From assembly GCA_019119165.1 (NCBI GenBank), contig DWXO01000021.1:1-64000 (forward strand): a stretch of DNA of 64,000 bases. Reading direction: 5' to 3'. This document shows, one piece after another, positions 14,758-50,599 of this stretch. Position 1 is the stretch's first letter, and every line of letters begins with the position of its first letter. The notes under the pieces were generated by a model, which was not told the DNA's origin, ran no database searches, and saw nothing but the letters and a program-made list of their open reading frames with translations. Both the position numbers and the translations under genes were made by a program. The DNA is from Candidatus Flavonifractor intestinigallinarum (GTDB lineage: Bacteria; Bacillota; Clostridia; Oscillospirales; Oscillospiraceae).

Positions 14758-14931
14758 AACGAGAGATTGAAACTATGCAAGATGCACAAATTTCCATATA
14801 AAAAGTTGTAGCTGCAACGGAGTGCTTTCGCGCACGGGCTGAATGGACATGGAATTCGGCTGGGTTGCGGACGCAACCTAGAAAAGAACGAATTTGTACT
14901 GTCCATTCCACCGGGAATGGGCAATTTTTTT
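14758..14931 (+). promoter_or_regulatory. Attenuator or riboswitch-like leader of ssnA
   Basis: The leader ends in an intrinsic terminator: GTCCATTCC (14901-14909), ACCG loop, GGAATGGGC (14914-14922) and seven T. The terminator's left arm TGTCCATTC (14900-14908) is fully complementary to GAATGGACA at 14841-14849, giving an alternative, antiterminating pair. Other stems are TGGGTTGC/GCAACCTA at 14861-14880, GTGC/GCAC at 14823-14835 and GTTG/CAAC at 14805-14818. This is the architecture of a riboswitch or protein-controlled attenuator. I could not assign it to a known aptamer class; a distant Moco-type RNA would fit the context but is not shown. Confidence 0.65.
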
Positions 14932-14968
14932 ACGGAGAAAAAGAACGAATTTAAAGGAGGAACTTACT

Positions 14969-16309
14969 ATGCTGCTGATCGGTAATGGCAGACTCATCAC
15001 CCGGAGCGAGGAGCTCCCTTATCTGGAAGACGGCGCCGTTGTTCTGGACGGCGAGGTGGTCAAGGAGGTCGGCTCCCTGGCCGACATGAAGGCCAAGTAC
15101 CCCGACGCCGAGTTCGTGGACGCCAAGGGCGGCGTCATCATGCCCGGCCTCATCAACGTCCATACCCACATCTATTCCGGCCTGGCCCGGGGCCTGTCCA
15201 TCAACGGCTTCAATCCCACCAACTTCTTTGAGGTGCTGGACGGCCAGTGGTGGTACATCGACCGTCACCTGACTCTGGACGGCACCCGCGCCTGCGCCTA
15301 CGCCACCATCCTGGACTGCATCCGGGACGGCGTGACCACCATCTTCGATCACCACGCCTCCTTCTGCGAGATCCCCGGTTCCCTCTTTGCCATCAAGGAC
15401 GTGTGCAAGGAGCTGGGTATGCGCGCCAACCTCTGCTACGAGGTGTCCGAGCGTGACGGCCAGGAGAAGTGCGATCAGTCCATCCAGGAGAACGCCGACT
15501 TCGCCAAGTGGGCCAAGGAGCAGGACGACGACATGATCAAGGCCATGTTCGGCGGCCACGCCCTGTTCACCATCTCCGACAAGACCTTTGAGAAGATGGT
15601 CAAGGCCAACGACGGCATGACCGGCTTCCACATCCATGTGGCCGAGGGCATGAACGATGTGTACGACTCCCTGCAGAACTACGGCTGCCGGCCCATCAAC
15701 CGCCTGCTGTACAACGGCATCCTGGGCGAAAAGACCATGCTGGGCCACTGCATCCACGTCTCTCCCGCCGAGATGGACATCATCAAGGAGACCAACACCA
15801 TGGTCTGCCACAACCCCGAGTCCAACATGGGCAACGCTGTGGGCTGCTCCCCCGTGCTGCAGCTGTACAACCGGGGCATCCTCATCGGCCTGGGCACCGA
15901 TGCCTACACCCACGATATGCTGGAGAGCCTGAAGGTCCTGCTGCCCATGCAGCGCCACAACGTCTGTCAGCCCAACGTGGGCTGGTGCGAGGCCACCGGG
16001 ATGCTCTTCCAGAACAACGCCAAGATCTGCTCCCGCTACTTCAAGAAGCCTCTGGGCGTGCTGAAGCCCGGCGCCGCCGCCGACGTGATCGTCATGGACT
16101 ACAAGCCCTTCACCCCCTTCTCCGACGCCAACATCGACGGGCATATGCTCTTCGGCATGATGGGCAAGAACTGCCGCACCACCATCATCAACGGCAAGGT
16201 GCTGTACAAGGACCGCGAGTTCGTGGGCATTGACGAGGACAAGATCAACGCCTGGTGCATGGAGCAGTCCAAGAAACTGTGGGGCGAGCTGAACCACTGC
16301 ACTTACTGA
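14969..16309 (+). CDS. ssnA: Putative aminohydrolase SsnA
   Basis: Encodes 446 residues of the amidohydrolase superfamily related to guanine/cytosine deaminases. Metal-site motifs are visible: GLINVHTHIYSG near residue 65, HIHVAEG near 220, GHCIHVSP near 260 and the aspartate in LGTDAYTHDM near 310. SsnA proteins are known from selenium-linked purine-degradation clusters and act on purine-derived intermediates; the exact reaction is not settled by sequence. ATG 14969 follows AAAGGAGG. The gene lies behind an attenuator and ahead of ygfK. Its last 20-odd codons are duplicated downstream. Confidence 0.9.
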   Translation: MLLIGNGRLITRSEELPYLEDGAVVLDGEVVKEVGSLADMKAKYPDAEFVDAKGGVIMPGLINVHTHIYSGLARGLSINGFNPTNFFEVLDGQWWYIDRHLTLDGTRACAYATILDCIRDGVTTIFDHHASFCEIPGSLFAIKDVCKELGMRANLCYEVSERDGQEKCDQSIQENADFAKWAKEQDDDMIKAMFGGHALFTISDKTFEKMVKANDGMTGFHIHVAEGMNDVYDSLQNYGCRPINRLLYNGILGEKTMLGHCIHVSPAEMDIIKETNTMVCHNPESNMGNAVGCSPVLQLYNRGILIGLGTDAYTHDMLESLKVLLPMQRHNVCQPNVGWCEATGMLFQNNAKICSRYFKKPLGVLKPGAAADVIVMDYKPFTPFSDANIDGHMLFGMMGKNCRTTIINGKVLYKDREFVGIDEDKINAWCMEQSKKLWGELNHCTY

Positions 16310-16312
16310 GAA
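16240..16312 (+). repeat. Direct repeat copy 1: 3' end of ssnA
   Basis: These 73 bases, covering the last codons of ssnA and its stop, recur at 16439-16511 with a single mismatch (A at 16276 against G at 16475). The mismatch is synonymous in the ssnA frame (lysine AAA/AAG). Confidence 0.97.
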
Positions 16313-16438
16313 CAACGTAGGTTGAGCTTGTCTTCGCCAAGCGTTTTGCCCCAGGCAAAACCTTGATGCCGGGGCGATTCATTCGACCCGAGCAGATGAA
16401 AGGAATCGGGGTCCCCGCCCGGCCGGGCCGGGTGGGGC
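16313..16438. repeat. Palindrome-rich insert between the ssnA tails
   Basis: This 126-base segment separates the two copies of the ssnA tail. It holds TTTTGCC/GGCAAAA and a GC-rich stem built on CCCGCCCGGCC and GGGCCGGGTGGGG. It also has a GGGGCGATTCATTCG stretch that resembles intergenic REP-type repeats. No open frame is supported. Confidence 0.7.
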
Positions 16439-16511
16439 CAAGATCAACGCCTGGTGCATGGAGCAGTCCAAGAAGCTGTGGGGCGAGCTGAACCACTGCA
16501 CTTACTGAGAA
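16439..16511 (+). repeat. Direct repeat copy 2: vestigial ssnA tail
   Basis: Second copy of the ssnA 3' end (72 of 73 bases identical to 16240-16312), still carrying the TGA stop but with no start or upstream coding sequence. It therefore looks like a remnant and not a gene. Confidence 0.95.
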
Positions 16512-44236: not shown

Positions 44237-45208
44237 ATGTGTACCAGCCTGACCTTTACCACCGAGCACACCTATTTCGGCCGGAATCTGGATCTGGAAT
44301 ACCACTTCGGCCAGCAGGTGGTCATTACCCCCCGCAATTACCCCTTTTCCTTTCGAGCCATGCCTGCCCTGGAGAAGCACCATGCCATCATCGGCATGGC
44401 CACGGTGGCGGAGGGCTATCCCCTCTACGCCGAGGGAGTCAATGAAAAGGGCCTCTATATGGCGGGGCTCAACTTCCCGGGCAACGCCTGCTATCCCTGC
44501 GGCCCGGAAAACGGCACTCCCGCCGCCCCCTATGAGCTGATCCCCTGGCTGCTGGGCACCTGCGACAGTGTGGACCAGGCCGAGGAAAAGCTGCGCTCCG
44601 TCCGGATTCTGGACACCCCCTTTGCCCCCAATATGCCCAACGCCCCCCTCCACTGGCACCTGGCCGACGGGCGGCGGGCTCTGGTGGCGGAGCCTATGGC
44701 CGACGGCCTGAAGTTGTTTGAGGACCCGGTGGGTGTGCTCACCAACAACCCAACCTTTAATTTCCACCTGACCAATCTGAACCAGTATATGGGCCTGTCT
44801 GCCGCCCAGCCGGACAATCGCTTCGGCGGGGTGGAGCTGCGCCCCTTCGGTCAGGGCATGGGCACATTGGGCCTGCCGGGGGACTGGTCACCTGCCTCCC
44901 GCTTTGTCCGGGCCGCCTTCCTCAAGTGGAACAGCGCCTGCCAGGGGGACCAGGCCTCCAGCGTCAGTCAGGTCTTTCACATCCTGGACGCCGTGGCCAT
45001 GCCCCGGGGGGCGGTGCGGACGCCCGAGGGGAAGTGGGACATTACGGATTACTCCTGCTGCATCGACGGCCGGACGGGCACCTACTACTATAAGACCTAC
45101 GACAACAGCCAGATTACCGCGGTGCCTATGGACGAGGCAAAGCGGGAGGGAGCAGCGCTGATCTGCCACCCTCTGGTGACCGAGCAGCAGTTCCGGATTG
45201 TGCCGTAA
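44237..45208 (+). CDS. Bile salt hydrolase (choloylglycine hydrolase family)
   Basis: Encodes 323 residues, the usual bile salt hydrolase (BSH) length. The N-terminal nucleophile is C2, exposed when Met1 is removed. The other family residues are present: R16 and D19 in FGRNLDL, N79 in AGLNFPG, N171 in LTNNPTF and R222 in PASRFVRAAF. The set matches BSH better than penicillin V acylase. It has no signal peptide, so it acts in the cytoplasm, cleaving glycine or taurine from conjugated bile acids. The start follows AGGAGGT. A short stem (GGACGCC/GGCGTTCC) lies upstream. Confidence 0.9.
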   Translation: MCTSLTFTTEHTYFGRNLDLEYHFGQQVVITPRNYPFSFRAMPALEKHHAIIGMATVAEGYPLYAEGVNEKGLYMAGLNFPGNACYPCGPENGTPAAPYELIPWLLGTCDSVDQAEEKLRSVRILDTPFAPNMPNAPLHWHLADGRRALVAEPMADGLKLFEDPVGVLTNNPTFNFHLTNLNQYMGLSAAQPDNRFGGVELRPFGQGMGTLGLPGDWSPASRFVRAAFLKWNSACQGDQASSVSQVFHILDAVAMPRGAVRTPEGKWDITDYSCCIDGRTGTYYYKTYDNSQITAVPMDEAKREGAALICHPLVTEQQFRIVP

Positions 45209-45411
45209 GCTCCGCCGGGGCCTCTGCCCCGGCACTTGTACACATTGCATAAGAAGAGGACTGTCCCACCGGGGCGAAAAACGGGAAAACCAGGCCTAAA
45301 ACCACGCAGTTTGCCAATTCGGCTGAGAGTTAAGGCGGCTTTCTTAAATTTCATTGTGCATATTGGACATAATCATTGATAAAAAAATAACGAATTTCTC
45401 TTGCATTTTAC

Positions 45412-45440
45412 TTGCCTGTTGGCCGGCAGTGCGCTATACT
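45412..45440 (+). promoter_or_regulatory. Promoter of the butyrate operon
   Basis: TTGCCT (45412-45417) and TATACT (45435-45440) are spaced by 17 bases. A Rex-like operator lies just downstream of the start point. The rest of 45209-45508 is AT-rich with no gene. Confidence 0.78.
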
Positions 45441-45454
45441 TATTAGGTAAGAAC

Positions 45455-45472
45455 TTGTTAAAAATATAACAA
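45455..45472. promoter_or_regulatory. Rex box (redox-sensing repressor operator)
   Basis: TTGTTAAAAATATAACAA differs by one base from the Clostridia Rex consensus TTGTTAANNNNTTAACAA. It lies about 15-30 bases after the -10 element, where a bound repressor would block transcription. Rex releases DNA at high NADH/NAD+, and it is known to control crt-bcd-etf-hbd genes in Clostridium. Confidence 0.82.
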
Positions 45473-45508
45473 TTCTAGATAGGTTACAGGACAAGGAGGT
45501 AGAACATA

Positions 45509-46285
45509 ATGGGTTTTGTGAAGCTGGAAAAGCAGGGCCATGTTGGCGTGGTCACCATTGACCGGCAGGAGGCGCTGAACGCGCTGAACAGCCAGGTTCT
45601 GAGCGATCTGGACGCGGTCATTGATCAGGTGGCTGCCGACGACGAGATCTATGTGATGATCCTCACCGGCGCGGGCCGTTCCTTCGTGGCGGGCGCTGAC
45701 ATCGGCGAGATGAAGAACTTCTCTTCCATCGACGGCAAGAAGTTCGGCGTACACGGCGGCGGTGTGTTCCTGAAGCTGGAGAATATGGCCAAGCCGGTCA
45801 TTGCCGCCATCAACGGGTTCGCTCTGGGCGGCGGCTGCGAGCTGAGCATGGCCTGCGATATCCGTCTGGCCAGCGAGAAGGCCAAGTTCGGTCAGCCCGA
45901 GGTGGGCCTGGGTATCACCCCCGGCTTTGCCGGTACTCAGCGGTTGCCCCGCATCGTGGGCATCTCCAAGGCCATGGAGCTGATCCTGACCGCCAAGGTC
46001 ATCAAGGCCGACGAGGCCAAGGCCATCGGCCTGGTCAGCGAGGTCTATCCCGCCGAGGAGCTGATGGACAAGGCCATGGAGCTGGCCAACGCCATCTGCG
46101 CCAACGCTCAGATCGCCGTGCAGGAGTCCAAGCGCTGCATCCGCATGGGTATGCAGACCGACATCGCCACCGGCTCCGCCTTTGAGGCCGAGGCCTTCGG
46201 CGTCTGCTGCGGCACCGCCGACAAGGACGAGGGCATGGGCGCCTTCCTGGAGAAGCGGGCTGAGAAGCACTTCCAGAATAAGTGA
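45509..46285 (+). CDS. crt: 3-hydroxybutyryl-CoA dehydratase (crotonase)
   Basis: Encodes 258 residues. It dehydrates 3-hydroxybutyryl-CoA to crotonyl-CoA in butyrate synthesis. The oxyanion-hole segments are AGRSFVAGADIGEM and NGFALGGGCELSMACDIR, with catalytic glutamates in GGGCELS and GQPEVGLGITPGF. RBS AAGGAGGT. First gene of crt-hbd-bcd-etfB-etfA, directly behind promoter and Rex box. Its last codons are repeated 191 bases downstream. Confidence 0.94.
   Translation: MGFVKLEKQGHVGVVTIDRQEALNALNSQVLSDLDAVIDQVAADDEIYVMILTGAGRSFVAGADIGEMKNFSSIDGKKFGVHGGGVFLKLENMAKPVIAAINGFALGGGCELSMACDIRLASEKAKFGQPEVGLGITPGFAGTQRLPRIVGISKAMELILTAKVIKADEAKAIGLVSEVYPAEELMDKAMELANAICANAQIAVQESKRCIRMGMQTDIATGSAFEAEAFGVCCGTADKDEGMGAFLEKRAEKHFQNK
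46262..46285 (+). repeat. Direct repeat copy 1: 3' end of crt
   Basis: These 24 bases (the last seven codons and stop TGA) recur at 46453-46476 with two differences, AAT/AAC and TGA/TAA, both silent in the crt frame. Confidence 0.9.
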
Positions 46286-46452
46286 TCTGGCGGTGTGTGG
46301 GCCGATGAGGGCATCGGCCCCTACGTCTCCAATCCCCTCGGAGAGCGGAGGGGGTATCGCGCCGCTTGCGGCGCGTATCTAGGGGGAACTGGTTCCCTCT
46401 GGACGGCGCGGACGTAATACCTGCGTTTCCCGCAGGAAACGCCCGCGCCGTG
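46286..46452. repeat. Palindrome-rich insert between the crt tails
   Basis: A 167-base segment with several palindromes: GGGCCGATGAGGGCATCGGCCC, CGCGCCGCTTGCGGCGCG and CTGCGTTTCCCGCAG. The first resembles the REP-type units common between genes of this group. No open frame is supported. Confidence 0.7.
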
Positions 46453-46476
46453 GAGAAGCACTTCCAGAACAAGTAA
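46453..46476 (+). repeat. Direct repeat copy 2: vestigial crt tail
   Basis: Second copy of the crt 3' end, reading in frame to a TAA stop but lacking any upstream coding sequence. Together with copy 1 it brackets the insert. Confidence 0.88.
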
Positions 46477-46547
46477 GGAAGTTCGGCGAATTTGATTCAG
46501 CAAACCAACTACATACATTTATAGTATTTGAAAAGAGGTTTTCTGCT

Positions 46548-47399
46548 ATGAAAAAGATTGTTGTCATCGGCGGCGGCACCATGGGCCTGGATATCGCTCA
46601 GGTCTTTGCCAAGAAGGATTTTGACGTTGTGGTCCGCGACATCAACGACGACATCATCAAGGCATCCGAGGCCCGCCTGAACAAGAGCCTGGACAAGCTG
46701 GTGGCCAAGGGCAAGATGGACGAGGCCAAGAAGGCCGACATCCTGGCCCGCATGAGCTTCACCACCGATCTGAAGGCTGCCGCCGACGCCGACCTGGTGG
46801 TTGAGGCCGCCATCGAGAACCTGGACATCAAGAAGAGCATCTTTGCCGAGCTGGACAGCATCTGCAAGCCCGAGACCATCCTGGCCTCCAACACCTCTTC
46901 CATCTCCATCACCGCTATCGCCGCCGCCACCAAGCGGGCCGACAAGTTTATCGGTATGCACTTCTTCAACCCCGCCACGGTCATGAAGCTGGTGGAGGTC
47001 ATCCGGGGCGCTCACACCTCCGACGAGACCTTCAAGACCATCAGCGACCTGTCCGTGGAGATCGGCAAGGAGCCTGTTGAGGTCAACGAGGCCCCCGGCT
47101 TCGTGGTCAACAAGATCCTGATCCCCATGATCAACGAGGGCATCGACCTGGTGTACACCGGCGTGGCTTCCGTGGAGGGTGTTGACACCGCCATGAAGCT
47201 GGGCGCCAACCACCCCATGGGCCCCCTGGCTCTGGGCGATCTGGTGGGCCTGGACGTGTGCCTGGCCATCATGGACACCCTGTACAACGAGACCCACGAT
47301 CCCAAGTACCGCGCCTCTCTGCTGCTGCGGAAGATGGTCCGCGCCGGCAAGCTGGGCCGCAAGACCGGCATCGGCTTCTACGACTACACCAAGAAGTAA
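46548..47399 (+). CDS. hbd: 3-hydroxybutyryl-CoA dehydrogenase
   Basis: Encodes 283 residues, the family size. The Rossmann motif is [17 protein letters not shown]; the catalytic histidine lies in [16 protein letters not shown], and the C-terminal domain starts at [16 protein letters not shown] with [15 protein letters not shown]. It reduces acetoacetyl-CoA with NAD(P)H. The RBS (AAAGAGGT) is moderate. The separation from crt (262 bases) is caused by the repeat insertion. Confidence 0.96.
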
Positions 47400-47426
47400 G
47401 AAGCCAGTTCATACTGCGCAAAACGA

Positions 47427-47455
47427 CGGGCGGGAGCCTAAAACACTCCCGCCCG
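47427..47455. repeat. Stem-loop between hbd and bcd
   Basis: CGGGCGGGAG (47427-47436) pairs with CTCCCGCCCG (47446-47455). The downstream tract CCGTTGTG is not a proper T-run, so read-through into bcd is expected; it may stabilise the upstream mRNA. Confidence 0.65.
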
Positions 47456-47491
47456 CCGTTGTGAAATACATATCTAGGAGGAAGGCAACAA

Positions 47492-48652
47492 ATGGATCTG
47501 CACCTTTCCAAAGAGCAGGAAATGCTCCGCAAGATGTACCGTGACTTTGCCGAAAACGAAGTCAAGCCCCTGGCTGAGTGGGTGGACGAGAACGAGGCGT
47601 TCCCCGAGGAGACCGTCAAGAAGATGGCCAAGCTGGGCATGATGGGCATCTATTTCCCCAAGGAGTATGGCGGCGCCGGCGCGGACGTTCTGTCCTACGT
47701 CATGGCCGTCGAGGAGATGAGCAAGGTCTGTGGTACCACCGGCGTTATCATCTCCGCTCACACCTCCCTGTGCTGCGCTCCCATCTATGAGAACGGCACC
47801 GAGGAGCAGAAGATGAAGTATCTGCCCAAGCTGTGCTCCGGCGAGTGGATCGGCGCCTTCGGCCTGACCGAGCCCGGCGCCGGCACCGACGCCCAGGGTC
47901 AGCAGACCACCGCCGTGAAGGACGAGAACGGCAACTGGGTGCTCAACGGCTCCAAGATCTTCATCACCAACGCCGGCTATGCCAACGTGTTCGTGATCTT
48001 CGCCATCACCGGTATCTCCACCGACAAGCGCGGCCGCAAGAAGAAGGAAATCTCCGCCTTCATCGTGGAGCGCACCGATCCCGGCTTCTCCGTGGGCAAG
48101 CACGAGAAGAAGATGGGCATCAAGGGCTCCTCCACCTGCGAGCTGATCATGGAGGACTGCGTGATCCCCGCCGACCGTCTGCTGGGCAAGCAGGGCAAGG
48201 GCTTCGGCATTGCCATGAAGACCCTGGACGGCGGCCGTATCGGTATCGCCTCCCAGGCTCTGGGCCTGGCCGAGGGCGCCATCGAGGAGACCATCAAGTA
48301 CACCAAGGAGCGTGTCCAGTTCGGTAAGCGCATTTCCCAGTTCCAGAACACCCAGTTCCAGCTGGCTGATATGCACGCCAAGACCGAGGCTGCCAAGTGG
48401 CTGGTTTACTCCGCCGCTATGAAGAAGCAGAACCATGAGCCCTACACCATGGACGCTGCCATGGCCAAGCTGTTCGCCGCCGAGACCGCCAGCGACGTGA
48501 CCCGCCGCTGCGTGCAGCTGTTCGGTGGCTACGGCTACACCCGTGAGTACCCCGTGGAGCGCATGATGCGCGACGCCAAGATCACTGAGATCTACGAGGG
48601 CACCAGCGAGGTCCAGCGCATGGTCATTTCTGCCAACCTGGGCGTGAACTAA
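47492..48652 (+). CDS. bcd: Butyryl-CoA dehydrogenase
   Basis: Encodes 386 residues of the acyl-CoA dehydrogenase family. FAD and substrate motifs are GAFGLTEPGAGTDA, FITNAGYA and GIKGSSTCELIMEDC; the catalytic glutamate is near residue 368 in ITEIYEGTSEVQRMV. With EtfAB it reduces crotonyl-CoA to butyryl-CoA, probably coupled to ferredoxin reduction by electron bifurcation. RBS TAGGAGGAAGG. It is followed by etfB after 23 bases. Confidence 0.96.
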   Translation: MDLHLSKEQEMLRKMYRDFAENEVKPLAEWVDENEAFPEETVKKMAKLGMMGIYFPKEYGGAGADVLSYVMAVEEMSKVCGTTGVIISAHTSLCCAPIYENGTEEQKMKYLPKLCSGEWIGAFGLTEPGAGTDAQGQQTTAVKDENGNWVLNGSKIFITNAGYANVFVIFAITGISTDKRGRKKKEISAFIVERTDPGFSVGKHEKKMGIKGSSTCELIMEDCVIPADRLLGKQGKGFGIAMKTLDGGRIGIASQALGLAEGAIEETIKYTKERVQFGKRISQFQNTQFQLADMHAKTEAAKWLVYSAAMKKQNHEPYTMDAAMAKLFAAETASDVTRRCVQLFGGYGYTREYPVERMMRDAKITEIYEGTSEVQRMVISANLGVN

Positions 48653-48675
48653 AGGAACTGGAGGGAAGTTACGAT

Positions 48676-49476
48676 ATGAAATGCATCGTTTGTGTTAAGC
48701 AGGTCCCGGATACCTCCGGTGTGGTGGCGGTGAAGGAAGACGGCACCATGGACCGTGCCGCCATGGCTACCATCACCAACCACGACGACCTGGCTGCTGT
48801 TGAGGCCGCTCTGCGCATCAAGGATGCCACCGGCTGCAAGGTGGTTGTGGTCTCCATGGGCCCCCCGCCCGCCGAGGGTATGCTCCGCGAGCTGCTGGCC
48901 ATGGGCTGCGACGAGGCCGTTCTGGTCTCCGCCCGTGAGTTCGGCGGTTCCGATACTTACGCCACCTCTCAGATCCTGGCTGCCGCCATCAAGAAGATCG
49001 GCGTGGACGACGACGATATCGTGTTCTGTGGCCGTCAGGCCATCGACGGCGATACCGCTCAGGTCGGTCCCCAGATCGCTGAGAAGCTGAACCTGCCCCA
49101 GGTCTCCTATGTGGCCGAGATCAACGTGGACGGCAAGGCTGTCACCGTGAAGCGTCTGCTGGAGGACGGCTACATGACCATCAAGGTCCAGACCCCCTGC
49201 CTGCTGACCTGCGTGAAGGAGCTCAACGATGCCCGCTACATGAGCGTGGGCGGCATCATGGAGTGCTACCAGAAGCCTCTGGAAGTGTACAACTATGAGA
49301 CTCTGAAGGACGATCCCCTGATTGATGTTACTACCATCGGCCTGAAGGGCTCTCCCACCAATGTGTACAAGTCCTTCTCTCCCCCGGTGAAGGGCGCCGG
49401 TATGATGATGGAGGGCGCCGATAAGGCGACTGTCGAGAAGCTGGTCTCCATCCTCAACGACAAGCACATTATCTGA
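48676..49476 (+). CDS. etfB: Electron transfer flavoprotein beta subunit
   Basis: Encodes 266 residues. N-terminal MKCIVCVKQVPDT, nucleotide-binding VVVSMGPPPAEGMLRELLAMG and DIVFCGRQAIDGDTAQVGP are family hallmarks. In bifurcating Etf proteins of butyrate producers this subunit carries an additional FAD and takes NADH electrons. Position between bcd and etfA supports that role. Confidence 0.95.
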   Translation: MKCIVCVKQVPDTSGVVAVKEDGTMDRAAMATITNHDDLAAVEAALRIKDATGCKVVVVSMGPPPAEGMLRELLAMGCDEAVLVSAREFGGSDTYATSQILAAAIKKIGVDDDDIVFCGRQAIDGDTAQVGPQIAEKLNLPQVSYVAEINVDGKAVTVKRLLEDGYMTIKVQTPCLLTCVKELNDARYMSVGGIMECYQKPLEVYNYETLKDDPLIDVTTIGLKGSPTNVYKSFSPPVKGAGMMMEGADKATVEKLVSILNDKHII

Positions 49477-49495
49477 TTGAAAGGAGAGCAATAGA

Positions 49496-50599
49496 ATGGC
49501 TTTCAATAGTAGCGATACCGCCGCCTTCAAGGGCGTATGGGTTTTCTGTGAGCAGCGCGAGGGCGTTATCATGTCCACCAGCTACCAGCTCCTCTCCGAG
49601 GGCCGTAAGCTGGCCAACGACCTGGGCGTTGAGCTGTGCGGCGTGGTCCTGGGCAAGGACATCAAGGAAGAGTACCTGAAGGCTCTGGGCGGCTACGGCG
49701 CCGACAAGGTGTACTACTGCAACCACGAGCTGCTGGACGTTTACACCACCGACGCCTACACCAAGGTCATCTGCGACCTGGTGGAGGACAAGAAGCCCGA
49801 GATCTTCCTCATCGGCGCCACCAACATCGGTCGTGACCTGGGCCCCCGCTGCGCTGCCCGGCTGCACACCGGTCTGACCGCCGACTGTACCCACCTGGAC
49901 GTGGACGTGGCCAAGTACAAGGAGTTCCTGAAGACCACCTCCACCATCGACGTGGATAACACCGTGTTCGAGGAGAACACCAACCTGAAGATGACCCGTC
50001 CCGCTTTCGGCGGTCACCTGATGGCCACCATCATCTGCCCCCGCTTCCGTCCCCAGATGTCCACCGTCCGTCCCGGCGTGATGCAGACCCAGCCCTACGA
50101 CGAGGCCGGCGCTGCCAAGACCGAGATCGTCAACGTGGATGTGGCCCTGTCCAAGGACGACATCCATGTGGACGTCATCGAGGTCAAGAAGGCCGCCAAG
50201 AAGCTGGTTGACCTGATCGGCGCCGACGTTGTGGTCTCCGTGGGCCGCGGCATCAGCAAGGACGTTGAGGGCGGCATCAAGCTGGCCGAGGAGCTGGCTT
50301 CCGTCCTGGGCGGCGTTGTGGGTTCCTCCCGTGCCTGCGTGGACGCCGGCTGGATCACTGCCGACCATCAGGTCGGCCAGACCGGCAAGACCGTCCATCC
50401 CCGCATCTATGTTGCTCTGGGTATCTCCGGCGCCATCCAGCACCTGGCTGGTATGCAGGACTCCGAGTGCATCATCGCGGTGAACAAGAACGAGTCCGCC
50501 CCCATCTTCGACGTGGCTTCCTACGGCATCTGCGGCGACCTGTACAAGGTTACCCCCATGCTCATCGAGGCCATCCGGGCTGCCAAGGCTGCCAAGTAA
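49496..50599 (+). CDS. etfA: Electron transfer flavoprotein alpha subunit
   Basis: Encodes 367 residues. The C-terminal FAD domain has VSVGRGISKDVEGG, LGGVVGSSRACVDAGW, HQVGQTGKTVHP and YVALGISGAIQHLAGM. The N-terminal extension (about 1-25) is slightly longer than in simple Etf. With EtfB and Bcd it forms the crotonyl-CoA-reducing complex. The start follows AAAGGAG. Last gene of the operon. Confidence 0.95.
   Translation: MAFNSSDTAAFKGVWVFCEQREGVIMSTSYQLLSEGRKLANDLGVELCGVVLGKDIKEEYLKALGGYGADKVYYCNHELLDVYTTDAYTKVICDLVEDKKPEIFLIGATNIGRDLGPRCAARLHTGLTADCTHLDVDVAKYKEFLKTTSTIDVDNTVFEENTNLKMTRPAFGGHLMATIICPRFRPQMSTVRPGVMQTQPYDEAGAAKTEIVNVDVALSKDDIHVDVIEVKKAAKKLVDLIGADVVVSVGRGISKDVEGGIKLAEELASVLGGVVGSSRACVDAGWITADHQVGQTGKTVHPRIYVALGISGAIQHLAGMQDSECIIAVNKNESAPIFDVASYGICGDLYKVTPMLIEAIRAAKAAK

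Follow-up and report, generated by a model that had tools for sequence, protein, structure and literature searches.

The OMEGA omegaRNA/HEARO elements of IscB have a structured, RNA-like non-coding scaffold, a target-complementary segment on its 5' side and a short motif where insertion takes place; a 5' guide and a TAM are described for IscB (PMC9640706). REP/BIME/REPIN sequences with RAYT are small, palindromic, intergenic and present in many copies; MITEs are small, non-autonomous, dispersed and rich in hairpins; in group I and other mobile introns, pairing with a guide spans the insertion junction, and the intron homes to one conserved coding site. Integrative elements with attachment sites at gene 3' ends, as well as synthetic home-and-rescue gene drives, use a conserved coding insertion point near the gene end and restore that end. 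The element considered here, E, is a structured non-coding sequence of ~125 nt situated near gene ends, between an upstream (R1) and a downstream (R2) copy of the host-gene tail, and it resembles each of these systems in the respects just listed, the likeness to integrative elements and gene drives being one of analogy.

Like an omegaRNA, E carries a predicted 5' guide complementary to its target; unlike it, E fails to match the HEARO model, is without IscB in its neighbourhood or elsewhere in the genus, and shows a local hairpin architecture and a long duplication of the host-gene tail. Compared with REP/BIME/REPIN, E is larger, its core motifs are conserved, its complementary segments differ from gene to gene and its direct repeats are long; in contrast to RAYT systems, several E-rich genomes lack the Y1 transposase; a short palindrome repeated over the genome (~30 copies) is seen only at 46299–46325 of the insert at crt described below. 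Whereas MITEs have a short target-site duplication of fixed length, the repeats flanking E are gene tails of variable length (26–210 nt), and no terminal inverted repeats were seen in a non-systematic look. Unlike group I/II introns, E has only ~125 nt and no match to intron models up to E-value 1; moreover, the gene functions without removal of E, R2 can be missing, and some insertions are opposite to the gene. Retroelements (TPRT, SINE-like) would require a resident reverse transcriptase, which is lacking in the E-rich genomes G201, G006, and G198, although an enzyme from a rare donor might serve instead. Finally, E differs from integrative elements in having neither an integrase gene nor coding capacity and in a site apparently set by the complementary segment, and no recombinase lies within or beside it (403 neighbouring ORFs).

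Tail duplications at crt and ssnA

The window, i.e., the whole stretch of 64,000 nt that was analyzed, is contig C86 of a 2.29-Mb genome in 105 contigs; the nearest relatives of its crt locus are from Flavonifractor. The first-pass annotation of the window had reported that crt has a second copy of its last 24 nt, 191 nt downstream (start to start) and with two changes, and re-reading of the coordinates shows this to be exact (Table 1). One change is silent (AAT/AAC), and the other replaces a stop with a stop (TGA/TAA). The 167 nt in between, described there as palindrome-rich, indeed form several strong hairpins. At the ssnA-like gene, ~73 nt are repeated at a distance of 199 with a single interior difference. 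The Rfam ssnA RNA motif (RF03031, 53.6 bits) is found at 14802–14850, immediately 5' of this gene.

Table 1. Positions of the host genes, tail copies and inserted elements in the window
Feature	Position	Strand	Evidence
ssnA-like gene, the other host gene of the window	14894..16309	+	Rfam ssnA RNA just upstream
R1 at ssnA, functional tail, stop TGA at 16307-16309	16240..16312	+	
Complementary segment at ssnA, GTTGAGCTTGTCTTCG, reverse complement (2 mismatches) of the gene across the left junction of R1	16321..16336	+	
E core at ssnA, CAAGCGTTTTG..CAAAACCTTG; second hairpin; GGGGTCCCC-hairpin-GGGGC	16338..16438	+	covariance-model match 16314-16442
R2 at ssnA, repeated tail, followed by native downstream sequence; one copy in the empty allele of G002	16439..16511	+	
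crt, short-chain enoyl-CoA hydratase (crotonase), host gene	45509..46285	+	NF004475, E-value 2.9e-114
R1 at crt, tail copy closing the functional reading frame, GAGAAGCACTTCCAGAATAAGTGA	46262..46285	+	
Insert at crt, 167 nt, palindrome-rich, REP-like palindrome + D-family element	46286..46452	+	
REP-like palindrome GGGCCGATGAGGGCATCGGCCCCTACG, ~30 copies in the own genome	46299..46325	+	
D-family element, hairpins CCCCTCGG.., CGCGCCG.., TATCTAGGGGGAACTGG..	46334..46452	+	relatives L298-L306
R2 at crt, second tail copy, GAGAAGCACTTCCAGAACAAGTAA, then native crt-hbd intergenic sequence	46453..46476	+	

The last 24 nt of each ORF end were sought up to 300 nt downstream, for 340 ORF ends on both strands with an open frame of at least 80 codons. 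The tail of crt recurs with 22/24 matches and that of the ssnA-like gene with 24/24, while all other ORF ends stay at or below 18/24, as do the controls. Such a tail repeat thus marks 2/340 ORF ends vs. 0/1,630 control comparisons. The two genes had been taken as independent cases of the phenomenon; both are real, with the refinement that their inserts come from different families, the one at ssnA being a standard member of the E family (type A).

Element E: structure and distribution

E shares the invariant motifs CAAG·GTTTTG…CAAAACCTTG, and its stems show compensatory variation, with GC, CG, AT, and TA all seen at one pair. The signature CAAGYGTTTTG-N-CAAAACCTTG occurs eight times in the own genome, and a strict version is found in all 20 tested genomes of the genus vs. 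0/20 others in the sample; the reversed-pattern control gives zero matches in both cases. A covariance model detects E in 78/251 genomes and 45/106 genera of the family, often in at least ten copies. Some copies form tandem arrays (L243, L246, L248, L249, and L271). In longer copies (L164, L264, and L280), the A part runs into a B part, which suggests that B is the 3' half of a larger element. Viral contigs contain seven pattern matches, and two of these contigs (L180 and L183) carry genuine E elements; in the phage contig L183, E is accompanied by a duplicated tail of a phage gene.

E has no match in Rfam: a search with eight E loci up to E-value 1, intron models included, yields none. The pattern is apparently widespread in gut Oscillospiraceae and undescribed so far; no published description of such elements was found in the open-licence literature, which is weak evidence of novelty.

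Direct repeats and gene ends

The general layout is the host coding tail R1 with its stop, 0–100 nt sometimes containing a terminator, a complementary segment of 10–16 nt, zero to two hairpins with the E core, R2, and the native downstream sequence. Direct repeats of 26–210 nt flank 86/99 E copies (65/71 in an earlier count in fetched loci), orthologous sites in these and the following counts being non-independent events. The upstream repeat ends at the stop of a same-strand gene in 74/86 cases (17% at random positions), and in 39/86 the end of R1 lies within –4 to +1 nt of the stop (1.3% at random positions). This bears out the earlier proposal of a recurring mechanism, with small non-coding elements at gene ends preceded by an intact stop. 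The notion of a vestigial 3' tail fits as well: at several sites (L211, L146, L158, L269, and L279) R2 is truncated or missing while R1 is intact. Empty alleles of the ssnA site, with a single tail leading straight into native sequence, occur in G002, G008, and others, and occupied ones in G000, G004, G005, and G018. One insertion site, GGCGA|ATTCGG (the bar marks the junction), is common to different genera.

At some sites E is opposite to a gene (L143; L261, 3987–4115; L267), and R1 then ends at or just past the start codon of that gene, which is hisS-like in L143. These gene-opposed insertions disfavor template jumping at mRNA 3' ends as the sole source of R1.

A segment complementary to the target

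The segment between the first tail and the E core is complementary to host-gene sequence spanning the left end of R1, which corresponds to the junction between E and the second tail. The duplex usually begins 3–7 nt upstream of the left end of R1 and extends 7–14 nt into the repeat; the E/R2 junction has a fixed place in it, usually 3–7 nt from its start, beside a GA|G motif. In 34 sites, the complementarity score averages 11.3, compared with 6.4 for swapped sites, and reaches at least 10 in 71% of sites vs. 2.4% of swapped pairs. Watson–Crick pairing at positions –3 to +6 around the junction is 83–98% (47 sites), these per-position figures being inflated by the requirement of a duplex near the junction, so the swapped-site control is the clean one. 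GA immediately precedes the junction in 24/65 targets vs. 6.8% in the background, and the cut sites favor GA|G. Among mismatches in the duplex, G–U (16) is not enriched relative to A–C (25); with no wobble enrichment, RNA–RNA pairing of a guide with the mRNA gains no support. The site-specific segment had been missed in the first-pass annotation.

The crt–hbd gap of relatives provides a natural comparison. Many sites are empty, e.g., L034–L038 and L042–L045 with one tail, and many have a different palindromic insert with another copy of the crt tail behind it; a second tail is present in 15/45 distinct loci. A segment complementary to crt occurs in 9/15 of these and in 2/30 of the others, and one of the latter two (L079) is a degenerate occupied site. 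Three scaffold types (A, B, and C) are seen at the crt tail. Types A and B use a nearly identical target position across several genera, and most of their copies have the segment complementary to the coding sequence there, e.g., CGCGCCCATGCCCT against AGGGCATGGGCGCG; type C (L089 and L092) has a different position and its own complementary segment. In L091, the gap reads tail–A–tail–C–tail.

Proposed guide-directed insertion and its alternatives

The best reading, to which we assign a probability of about one half, is guide-specified insertion with rescue of the reading frame, the old tail being left as a relic. The complementary segment would be the guide, setting a cut a few dozen nucleotides before the gene end, as a rule within conserved coding sequence. 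The element would enter with, or by copying, the remainder of the reading frame, so that the gene stays intact, and the old tail would remain downstream as R2, to erode later. Since the coding sites are conserved, one guide could recognize its site again in further strains and species, i.e., homing. More speculatively, the element might act as RNA, possibly made by read-through transcription from the host gene, and the enzyme might act in trans or be only rarely resident. This reading does not explain the origin of guides for new sites; further, R1 of the occupied allele still offers a match to the segment, and a guided nuclease would therefore attack the element's own site unless something shields it. 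Also against it, no protein family recurs beside E, and the crt insert of the window has no detectable guide.

A view based on DNA alone, which we consider unlikely, dispenses with the guide. Here, in replication or repair, the nascent strand would fold back at the gene end and be extended by 10–16 nt on itself as template; after a jump to an E template it would rejoin the gene, so that the tail is made twice and the inverted segment is a side effect. Hairpin-rich DNA favors template switching, and the lack of G–U enrichment and of an enzyme in searches for neighbours, reverse transcriptase, and Y1 would be in line with such copying. Where R1 and R2 differ, the segment agrees with R1 in 11 cases and with R2 in three, as expected for a same-strand copy, but the same is also expected if R2 drifts as non-coding DNA. 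Fold-back copying also leaves without account the centring of the segment on the E/R2 junction, the GA|G motif there, the frequent end of R1 exactly at the stop, and the use of the same nucleotide in different genera. Snap-back after E synthesis is rejected: the segment contains native nucleotides upstream of the cut, which are absent at the E/R2 junction, and therefore was not copied from that junction.

The behavior of the second tail bears on another, distinctly unlikely, model, in which R1, the segment, and E are spliced from RNA as an intron-like unit that joins the gene to R2, the same protein being made from spliced and unspliced mRNA; the segment would behave as a group I internal guide sequence and base-pair with the joined exons, and reverse splicing would provide mobility. 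In its favor, the segment spans the junction that splicing would make, and R2 keeps an in-frame tail of the same length, when read from the gene, at 69/80 sites. R1–R2 differences are mostly silent (167 at third, 36 at second, and 28 at first codon positions), and between species R2–R2 comparisons are as silent-biased as R1–R1 ones (88:21 vs. 91:17). This bias could reflect selection on R2 through splicing, which is questioned by the sites named above where R2 is truncated or gone with R1 intact; such R2 disfavor obligatory splicing in particular. The silent bias can also come from recently functional alleles or from refreshment by recombination, as in L263/L288, and the model is further weakened by the gene lying on the opposite strand at some sites, e.g., the hisS-like start, and by the small size of E, which matches no intron or other family of Rfam.

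A known system acting in trans, such as an IS200/IS605 Y1 transposase, OMEGA IscB/TnpB, or a reverse transcriptase, is very unlikely. The hairpin-rich ends, the junction by a short motif, and the scaffold with a 5' guide do resemble OMEGA or IS605, and the long variable repeats recall target-primed reverse transcription, but such transposons normally lack a target duplication of 26–210 nt. Among the 403 neighbouring ORFs, no protein family recurs beside E except host-gene orthologues, with neither a recombinase nor IscB, hence no partner gene adjoins E. No IscB passes the cut-off in the genus, and it is found in just 4/401 family genomes. The HEARO model RF02033 gives no match up to E-value 1 for eight E loci, or up to E-value 10 for the ssnA element, whereas the same search recognizes a true HEARO RNA in the same family (L355, E-value 1.5e-25); the omegaRNA/HEARO identity of E is thus rejected. 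RVT_1 is absent not only from the three E-rich near-complete genomes listed in the opening comparison but also from 11/16 tested genomes of the genus, and Y1_Tnp from five element-rich near-complete genomes (G018, G013, G286, G115, and G130), which rejects reverse transcriptase as an obligatory resident partner and Y1 transposase as an obligatory partner. The genuine IscB genes with HEARO RNA (L355, 3145–3390; L357) are rare in the family and unrelated to E.

Least likely of all, and already disfavored, is allelic replacement as the sole cause, in which the second tail would simply be what homologous recombination with a related species left behind, and the palindromes would play no part: R1–R2 pairs with up to 8–9 silent changes, the little flank difference at L263/L288, and the tails of L033 (below) agree with it, but many pairs are identical, and dozens of unrelated genes share one structured element, with the same 3' limit of E against R2 and with the complementary segment.

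With somewhat less assurance than guided insertion itself, E may be placed in a new class of programmable mobile elements that look protein-free, a guided scaffold with frame rescue, i.e., a natural home-and-rescue element served by an enzyme or a ribozyme. If the guide reading is true, E represents a natural system of guide-directed DNA insertion that spares the genes it enters, with relevance to genome engineering and to the coexistence of mobile elements with essential genes. Even without a guide, E is an abundant structured family of gut Oscillospiraceae with no Rfam match, and accounts for a class of duplicated gene tails ignored by annotation.

History of the tails

The exchange of alleles that the first-pass annotation had offered as an alternative still has a place here: some unit and tail sequences look imported from relatives. 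It does not replace insertion, because empty alleles with a single tail exist. In L263 and L288, from two species, R1 is identical and R2 has six silent changes, a pattern indicative of recombination with functional alleles; the flanks differ little. Behind R1 of L033 stands a 3' untranslated stretch resembling another species, and the sequence behind R2 is native-like. The coding tails of L265 and L278 agree, but the terminator that goes with R1 there is not related to the native one behind R2. For the site shared by L293, L276, and L261, relationships of the elements disagree with those of the flanks, suggesting between-species exchange; at other sites, element and flank divergence run parallel, as under vertical descent.

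The insert at crt in the window

At 44237–50599, a choloylglycine (bile salt) hydrolase gene adjoins the crt–hbd–acyl-CoA dehydrogenase–etf cluster, which resembles acryloyl-CoA reductase genes. REP/RAYT-type inserts, as suggested earlier, do not hold in general, E being a different, larger, structured element and the Y1 transposase being absent from several rich genomes, yet they describe part of the crt insert; REP as a general explanation is rejected, as only that 27-nt part recurs widely in the own genome. The D element has copies in other genomes of the genus. A guide was sought in the crt insert of the window and in other D elements, with nothing convincing found, and only the D element, the REP, and the end of R2 are now left at the site. 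Since relatives have guide-bearing elements at the same crt site, the insert is probably an eroded, composite member of the guide-bearing class; most likely, an element with a guide once duplicated the tail and was then lost, D and REP taking its place. In G006 (L033), E occupies the same crt site and is followed by the same D inside R2, and in L302 one gene tail has nested insertions of E and D, with D inside the E site and four tail copies. Several D elements have no tail duplication (L298, L299, L303, L304, and L305), and their right end lies almost exactly at the stop codon of an opposite-strand gene.
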